Below, piece after piece: positions 25,993 through 27,733 of a stretch of 40,714 nt of DNA. Within the stretch, counting starts at the first letter, position 1. Each line of letters begins with the position of its first letter. The notes below the pieces were generated by a model. The model saw nothing but the letters and a program-made list of their open reading frames with translations. It searched no databases and was not told the DNA's origin. Source of the DNA: Candidatus Ornithospirochaeta stercoravium (GTDB lineage Bacteria > Spirochaetota > Spirochaetia > Sphaerochaetales > Sphaerochaetaceae); assembly GCA_017694915.1 (NCBI GenBank), contig JADIMF010000002.1, positions 1 to 40,714 of the forward strand, read 5' to 3'. Position numbers and translations under genes: made by a program.

Positions 25993-26916
25993 ATGAAAAA
26001 GCTTATCACGATTCTGGCGATGCTGATGATGGTATTATCCATCCATGCATCCGATCCTGTTGTATTATTCGGACTTCTATCTCCGACAGCTTCATATTCC
26101 GGTTCGATGGAAAGTGAATCGATAGATGCCGATTTCCTCAATCACGACACGATAACAGGCCTTATAGCAACAGCTGAGCTTGAAAGAAAGGACATTACTA
26201 TCGAAAAGCTTCTTTCCGATAAGATCTTCACAAGCTCAAAAGCTCTTATCGATGCAGGAATGATAGGCCTTTCCCTTGAGGATGCCGGGGCCATCGGAAC
26301 TGACGGCACTGTGATAATCACACCGGATATGTCATCAATGTCATCTCTCGAAGGCTCAATTACTGTTGAATATGATGATTTCAAAATGCTCTATTCAATC
26401 GGAGCGAGAACCGAGAGCATAACGCTTGATGGAAAGGTGACAGTTTCCATCAACCTTTCGGATGAATCGCTTCTCTATCTCTCTGTCAGAACAGATGATT
26501 TCCTCTTCAATGGTGACTCATCGTACAGTAACAGCAGTGCAGGAATAAGAATCTTCTTCGAGTATGACAAAGTAGGTCAGTGGCTGAGCTACATGGGCTA
26601 TGACTTTGATGAGCTGAGGTATATGACAGCATATATGCTTCTGGATATACCGGAACTGCAGGAAGCTGGTATCGATGCAACATCACCTGAAACTGTAATC
26701 TTTTCGCTTGAGGAGATAAAAGCGCTTGATATCCTCGATGCAGTCGCTTTCGCACTTACTGCAGATTCTGCAGAAGGAATCGATACGATGCGCATGGCAT
26801 CGATGGCATTGAAGCCAGTGCTTTATATCGATGAGAAGGAAGCTGAGGATATAAACCTCAAAGCTCTCATGGATACAGCTCTTGATGTCGCATATGTCTT
26901 CTCAGATATGATGTGA
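25993..26916 (+). CDS. Secreted/periplasmic protein of unknown function
   Basis: 307 aa; signal peptide MKKLITILAMLMMVLSIHA; no recognised domain. Confidence 0.7.
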   Translation: MKKLITILAMLMMVLSIHASDPVVLFGLLSPTASYSGSMESESIDADFLNHDTITGLIATAELERKDITIEKLLSDKIFTSSKALIDAGMIGLSLEDAGAIGTDGTVIITPDMSSMSSLEGSITVEYDDFKMLYSIGARTESITLDGKVTVSINLSDESLLYLSVRTDDFLFNGDSSYSNSSAGIRIFFEYDKVGQWLSYMGYDFDELRYMTAYMLLDIPELQEAGIDATSPETVIFSLEEIKALDILDAVAFALTADSAEGIDTMRMASMALKPVLYIDEKEAEDINLKALMDTALDVAYVFSDMM

Positions 26917-26937
26917 TACTGCAATGAATTAAAACAC

Positions 26938-26989
26938 AAAGCCTGATGCCCGGATGAGTGGATTCATCAATGAGATCAGGCTTTTTGTA
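26938..26989 (+). terminator. Rho-independent terminator downstream of the 307 aa gene
   Basis: AAAGCCTGAT ... ATCAGGCTTTTT, inner GATGA/TCATC pairing, T-run. Confidence 0.85.
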
Positions 26990-27000
26990 TAATTTATGGT

Positions 27001-27135
27001 TTTGGTAGTTTAAATAGACCTGCTGATTACTGGCCGGTATACTGGCGCTTCAATGCTGATGTGCTGAATACTCTCAGGGCCAATGGTCTCGATATGCCTT
27101 TCAATCAGATGGATGTGCATCTTATTAAAGACTGA
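27001..27135 (+). pseudogene. C-terminal relic of an MscS-family mechanosensitive channel gene
   Basis: Frame from 27025 encodes DYWPVYWRFNADVLNTLRANGLDMPFNQMDVHLIKD-stop, matching the MscS C-terminal pattern (DYW.VYW...(P)FPQMDVH). No start or body upstream; too short for the ORF track. Confidence 0.75.
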
Positions 27136-27193
27136 TGGCTTGACACTTTCCGAGATAATCGTTAAAGAATAATCAGTTTCATTTAAAGTGATT

Positions 27194-27220
27194 TAAAGGG
27201 ACCGGCTAAGGGTCCCTTTA
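27194..27220 (+). promoter_or_regulatory. Leader hairpin before rimP-nusA-infB
   Basis: Perfect 10-bp stem TAAAGGGACC-GGCTAAG-GGTCCCTTTA ending a few nt before the rimP SD; possible attenuator or processing site. Confidence 0.55.
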
Positions 27221-27238
27221 TTCATGAAATGGAGGAAT

Positions 27239-27733
27239 ATGCTGACAGAAGACGGAAGAGATTCATCTTTATTCAAGGAAGTGGACAGCTTCGTTAAGGA
27301 GCTCGGTCTTGAGACTGTTGAGGTCACTGATAGTATCCATCAGGGTAATCATTCGATGCGCGTCATCGTAGCGAGGAAGGATGGAGAGATAACAACCGAT
27401 GATCTTGCGGAGATCTACAATATCATCTATCCGCGTTATTCGGTTATCTATTCGGACAGGGATCTTCAGCTTGAGGTTTCATCACCTGGTCTTCAGAGGG
27501 CTTTCAAGGATGTTCTCGAATTCAGCGTATTCGAAGGTAAGCTTGTTAGGGCATACAGTGTTTCACGGTCTCAGTATGTTGTCGGAAAGATCGAGAAGGC
27601 CGGTGAGAATTCCGTTATCCTTTCCGATTATTTCATAGAGGACGGTAACGAGAAGGGAGAGTCCATCTCCCTTCCATACAGCGATATAGCAAAGGCAAAG
27701 CTGGAATACAGATGGGAGGCAAATAATGCTTGA
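27239..27733 (+). CDS. rimP: Ribosome maturation factor RimP
   Basis: Position before nusA; LEVSSPGLQRAFK motif, VRKxG-like IVARKDGEITTDDLAEI. Start at ATG 27239 (GGAGG upstream) or 27224. Confidence 0.9.
   Translation: MLTEDGRDSSLFKEVDSFVKELGLETVEVTDSIHQGNHSMRVIVARKDGEITTDDLAEIYNIIYPRYSVIYSDRDLQLEVSSPGLQRAFKDVLEFSVFEGKLVRAYSVSRSQYVVGKIEKAGENSVILSDYFIEDGNEKGESISLPYSDIAKAKLEYRWEANNA

Follow-up and report, generated by a model that had tools for sequence, protein, structure and literature searches.

A 5'-truncated mscS remnant beside the native rimP promoter of Candidatus Ornithospirochaeta stercoravium

The spacer ahead of the rimP-nusA-infB operon of Candidatus Ornithospirochaeta stercoravium contains a reading frame that has a stop codon and no start, and the question it raises is what this frame once was and how it came to lie there. 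The window analyzed here is the whole stretch of 40,714 nucleotides (assembly GCA_017694915.1, contig JADIMF010000002.1), and we refer to the genome that holds it as G000; C-numbers denote contigs, L-numbers denote loci, and G006 is the sister genome, from the closest species. The local order is mutS, a gene for a protein of 307 amino acids (aa), a terminator-like stem, the fragment in question, the rimP promoter, a hairpin leader, rimP, nusA, and infB. A first-pass annotation had read the frame at 27025 to 27135 (DYWPVYWRFNADVLNTLRANGLDMPFNQMDVHLIKD and a stop) as an MscS-family C terminus lying between a terminator and the rimP promoter, and both parts of that reading are borne out by our comparisons. 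The fragment is probably what remains, without function, of a second mscS copy that once occupied the gap from the 307-aa gene to the rimP promoter and has lost its 5' part.

Positions 27019 to 27135 of the forward strand hold the last 38 codons (PADYW...HLIKD) and the TGA stop (27133 to 27135) of an MscS channel gene; the full window frame that ends at 27135 translates as PADYWPVYWRFNADVLNTLRANGLDMPFNQMDVHLIKD and a stop. The same genome carries an intact mscS of 290 aa on another contig (G000:C31; L001, 913 to 1785), and the fragment matches its 3' end at 99 of 108 nt (92%; E = 3e-41), which rules out a chance match. At the protein level, identity is 89% over 38 aa (E = 5e-22). The 108 nt of DNA identity precede the final codons, which read KD-TGA in the fragment and QG-TAA in the intact gene (PF00924/PF21082); the two share the C-terminal motif DYWPVYWRFN...NGLDMPFNQMDVHLI, and the fragment keeps all 17 residues that are invariant among nine aligned MscS C termini. 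The intact protein scores 52.9 bits on PF21082, above the cutoff of 21. The family-model check envisaged by the first-pass annotation nevertheless failed on the fragment itself: a Pfam hmmscan of a 48-aa piece alone gave no family match, and a phmmer search of the piece against the PDB returned a single MscS structure (7dlu) at an E value of 0.09. With the fragment silent in these searches, its identification comes from its relatives, family search alone being insufficient.

The fragment represents 38 of ~290 codons. Homology begins at 27019, in-frame stops lie upstream, and neither a start codon with a ribosome-binding site nor a channel body precedes it, in agreement with the earlier reading. 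The intact G000:C31 gene is whole; the fragment lacks the start, the membrane helices with the pore-lining helix, and the beta domain. Significant in-frame homology that runs through the stop codon, with the start and most of the gene gone, marks it as an mscS pseudogene by sequence origin. Truncated pseudogenes in prokaryotic spacers form a general class, the detection of which is the subject of two reports (PMC9336565, PMC10682499), and the fragment resembles its members in being a short, decaying gene end easily overlooked by gene callers; it is an individual case and in kind no different from them. Our literature search found no paper that combines mscS, a pseudogene, and a spirochete, and no phage or virus carrying the fragment turned up when we looked for one.

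Upstream, the neighbor gene (25993 to 26916, forward strand) encodes a predicted, uncharacterized 307-aa protein with a signal-peptide-like start and no Pfam match. It also sits between mutS and rimP in G006, at 47% aa identity. Weak matches to it occur upstream of rimP in G015, G017, G023, and G044, highly diverged at 24 to 29% outside G006. The gene is followed by a terminator-like stem-loop and T-run (26938 to 26988, forward strand; stem, 26938 to 26984) with a predicted fold of −20.1 kcal/mol over 26935 to 26992; a simple terminator scan misses it because the loop is longer than the scan rule allows, and the G006 spacer has no such stem. From there to the homologous part runs a 30-nt linker (26989 to 27018, forward strand) with the in-frame text IIYGFGSLNR. 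The first-pass annotation took its GFGSLN for a preceding MscS segment with small deletions, a proposal that we cannot sustain. Against the corresponding segment of the genome's own intact mscS, the linker gave P values of 0.59 as DNA and 0.46 as protein; its DNA fell below 0.05 against only 1 of 29 mscS copies, which does not exceed chance expectation, and a DNA search of its own genome found no second copy.

The further suggestion that the fragment carries the operon promoter is contradicted by the conservation of that promoter across the genus. The −35/−10 pair, TTGACA (27140 to 27145) and TAAAGA (27163 to 27168) separated by a 17-nt spacer, begins 4 nt past the fragment's stop codon (27140 to 27168, forward strand). 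A promoter of this form (TTGACA-17-TAAA/TATA) and its leader lie directly 5' of rimP in all 25 genus genomes aligned, whichever gene precedes, and because genomes that lack mscS at this position also conserve it in the same place, it is native to rimP and not inherited from mscS. A consensus promoter scan omits 27140 to 27168, whose −10 element does not satisfy the scan rule. A candidate promoter within the fragment (TAGACC-17-TATACT, 27015 to 27043, 9/12 matches) was rejected as being at chance level, with one found and 1.2 expected.

The leader pattern conserved across the 25 genomes is AGTTTCATTTAAAG..ATTTAAAGGGACC..GGTCCCTTTATTC. In the window, the strongly conserved part (27172 to 27238; TTTCATTTAAAG..ATTTAAAGGGACC-loop-GGTCCCTTTATTC) fills the space between promoter and ribosome-binding site, and it contains a hairpin, TAAAGGGACC...GGGTCCCTTT (27194 to 27220, forward strand), that is conserved in the genus. 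The hairpin folds at about −24 kcal/mol, and just two of its pairs have changes on both sides. It may attenuate or otherwise regulate the rimP-nusA-infB operon; an Rfam search that included the leader gave no credible match. The rimP gene itself (27239 to 27733, forward strand) most likely starts at ATG 27239, behind GGAGG, the ATG at 27224 in the open reading frame list not being conserved.

Having established what the fragment is, we compared the rimP site across relatives, with one genome per species; the named ones are mostly metagenome-assembled, uncultured Spirochaetaceae or Spirochaetales. A single genome, G024 from the same genus, has an intact mscS (290 aa) between mutS and rimP (L045, L102). 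It occupies the same position as the fragment, with its stop beside the rimP −35 box at a distance of 5 nt from TTGACA versus 4 nt in the window, an agreement that is weak evidence, given that many genomes have no more than a few bases between the −35 box and the gene upstream of it. Unlike the fragment, it is a whole gene, has no 307-aa gene upstream, and groups with the G037a copy. In G006 the order is mutS, the 307-aa gene, and rimP, with neither fragment nor terminator; in many other genomes mutS is directly ahead of the rimP promoter, and the genomes between G000 and G024 on the species tree have no mscS before rimP. In the DNA tree the fragment's partner is the intact G000:C31 mscS (97/93). 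Grouping it with the G024 site copy is rejected (p-AU 0.028) and pairing it with G006 is not (p-AU 0.228), the AU test applying one model to a small fragment and the DNA comparison covering 36 to 38 codons. The expectation that a related genome would show an intact mscS in this interval thus held for G024 and failed for G006, and the copy that was found does not cluster with the fragment. Because the fragment stands apart from the G024 copy, either mscS entered the gap before rimP on two occasions or there was exchange between copies.

The substitution pattern bears on when the gene was cut. Between the fragment and the genome's own intact mscS, five codons differ silently and two by replacement, giving a dN of 0.024, a dS of 0.41, and a dN/dS of ~0.06 over only 36 aligned codons, on which dS is noisy. 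This is a signature of purifying selection, and it answers the dN/dS comparison that the first-pass annotation had proposed. Among the codons that could be polarized, roughly one replacement (A for S) can be attributed to the fragment; one of the two replacements is more simply assigned to the branch of the intact copy, and both replacement states are known in intact relatives. A segment dead since the divergence should show mainly replacements, and so the mostly silent differences point to a fragment cut late from a gene that was still functional, here or in a donor.

These data are best explained if a whole gene once lay exactly at this site in this lineage, as we infer. The second mscS copy would have come from the clade of copies found at scattered sites in the genus, with the intact G000:C31 copy as its closest relative. 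The body of the gene before rimP would have been deleted recently, by a deletion that stopped short of the stop codon, beside the rimP promoter, leaving the stump. Deletions reaching into that promoter are perhaps selected against, which may be why the stump persists. The remnant probably has no function of its own, and its sequence gives no reason to expect expression, since it has neither a start nor a ribosome-binding site and is preceded by a terminator-like stem. Parallel mscS 3' fossils in G019 and G014 count in favor of this explanation. Against a whole-gene ancestor stand the absence of a grouping with G024 and the empty sites of the intervening genomes and of the sister G006, and by orthology such an ancestor is therefore not established. 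As for the earlier proposal that a whole channel gene was lost, the silent differences and the same-site mscS of G024 fit the loss of a whole gene copy, but the species still has the channel, since an intact and closely related mscS is retained elsewhere in G000.

A possible though considerably less likely alternative is that just the 3' end of mscS ever arrived, by illegitimate recombination or template switching from the genome's own copy or from the DNA of a relative. That the fragment is nearest to its own genome's copy and not to the G024 site copy, and that G006 shows no trace of it, would both follow, and the terminator and 30-nt linker, which are also new relative to G006, could be the junction. 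The low dN/dS, however, requires coding constraint over most of the divergence, whereas a dead piece would have accumulated mostly replacements; partial copying can be reconciled with it if the piece came from an intact copy in another strain that had diverged beforehand.

We consider it improbable that G000 and G024 inherited mscS at the rimP site from their common ancestor, with losses in every other lineage and with the second G000 copy derived from, or homogenized with, the one at this site. Measured from the −35 box, the positions of the two genes differ by no more than 1 nt, and the rimP leader of G000 is most like that of G024 (96%, versus 70 to 92% for the others), as such an ancestor would predict. 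The AU test speaks against it, however, many independent clean losses would be required on the species tree, and the coincidence in spacing carries little weight for the reason given above. A role for the 38 codons, whether as a small conserved gene or as an element acting upstream of the rimP operon, is very unlikely: the frame is intact and its invariant residues are kept, but recency explains that intactness, and no counterpart lies before rimP elsewhere to set against the missing start and ribosome-binding site. A chimeric join in a metagenome-assembled genome of 165 contigs, compared largely with other such assemblies, is scarcely credible, since the order mutS, 307-aa gene, rimP, nusA equals that of G006, so that two false joins ~117 nt apart would be needed, and comparable stumps occur in independent genomes. 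A 5'-truncated mRNA retrocopy is not favored either, because the homology stops at the last codons and does not extend to the terminator that follows the intact gene.

Across the genus, the usual home of mscS is between htpG and rlmE, where ~20 genomes carry it. In G000, G006, G011, G020, G028, G036, and G037 that site is empty, with rlmE directly following htpG. The empty loci (L265 on G000:C142, L264, L261, L262, L258, L266, and L267) belong to genomes that carry mscS of the other clade elsewhere. Home-site loss together with gain at scattered sites is the pattern of mscS in the genus. The copies at scattered sites form one clade (SH-aLRT 98) from ten genomes, and G021, G024, and G026 have both kinds. 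The scattered copy of G011 groups with that of G000, although the species tree places G011 with G023, a conflict that suggests transfer between species.

Solitary mscS 3' ends were found in only 3 of the 139 family genomes, namely, G000 (in the window), G019, and G014. The G019 stump has 28 codons (L035, 5181 to 5267, on G019:C2) and is flanked by an unrelated gene on one side and a transporter gene on the other. It recurs in G014, a close relative of G019, where another 51 nt have been deleted from it (L212, G014:C78), and in G007 the site is present without a stump. An additional stump of 20 codons occurs in G014 (L036, 3320 to 3382, on G014:C133), on a small contig, where it immediately follows the terminator of an additional HU-like gene. 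The series is one of graded decay of gene ends, and with three cases it is not statistically notable that all of them are 3' ends. We found no clear 5' or middle fragments of mscS in the genus to balance them; G025 and G026 gave partial matches that resemble contig-split genes or distant MscS paralogues. By eye, no shared flanking repeats that would mark a transposable unit were found at 14 scattered copies, and no mobile gene explaining relocation was found near the scattered copies, in both cases at a divergence too high for exclusion. Adjoining the intact G000 mscS is a gene for a helix-turn-helix and membrane-like protein of patchy distribution (L001, 1887 to 3245); it is absent from G006 and 84% identical in G012, where no mscS lies beside it.

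Only tentatively do we suggest that mscS is a wandering single gene in this genus, cleanly lost from its home in several species, with a separate lineage landing alone at new intergenic sites that include the pre-rimP gap twice, and leaving 3' stumps behind by a mechanism that may favor certain sites or the 3' end. The fragment itself is an ordinary gene fossil. A 38-codon stump that a Pfam scan misses can still be identified through an intact copy elsewhere in its genome, and graded fossils such as the 28-codon stump and its 51-nt-shorter counterpart could be used to time gene decay. The part of wider interest is the pattern of gain, loss, and relocation, which points to unusually fast turnover of a stress-release channel gene inside a single genus.
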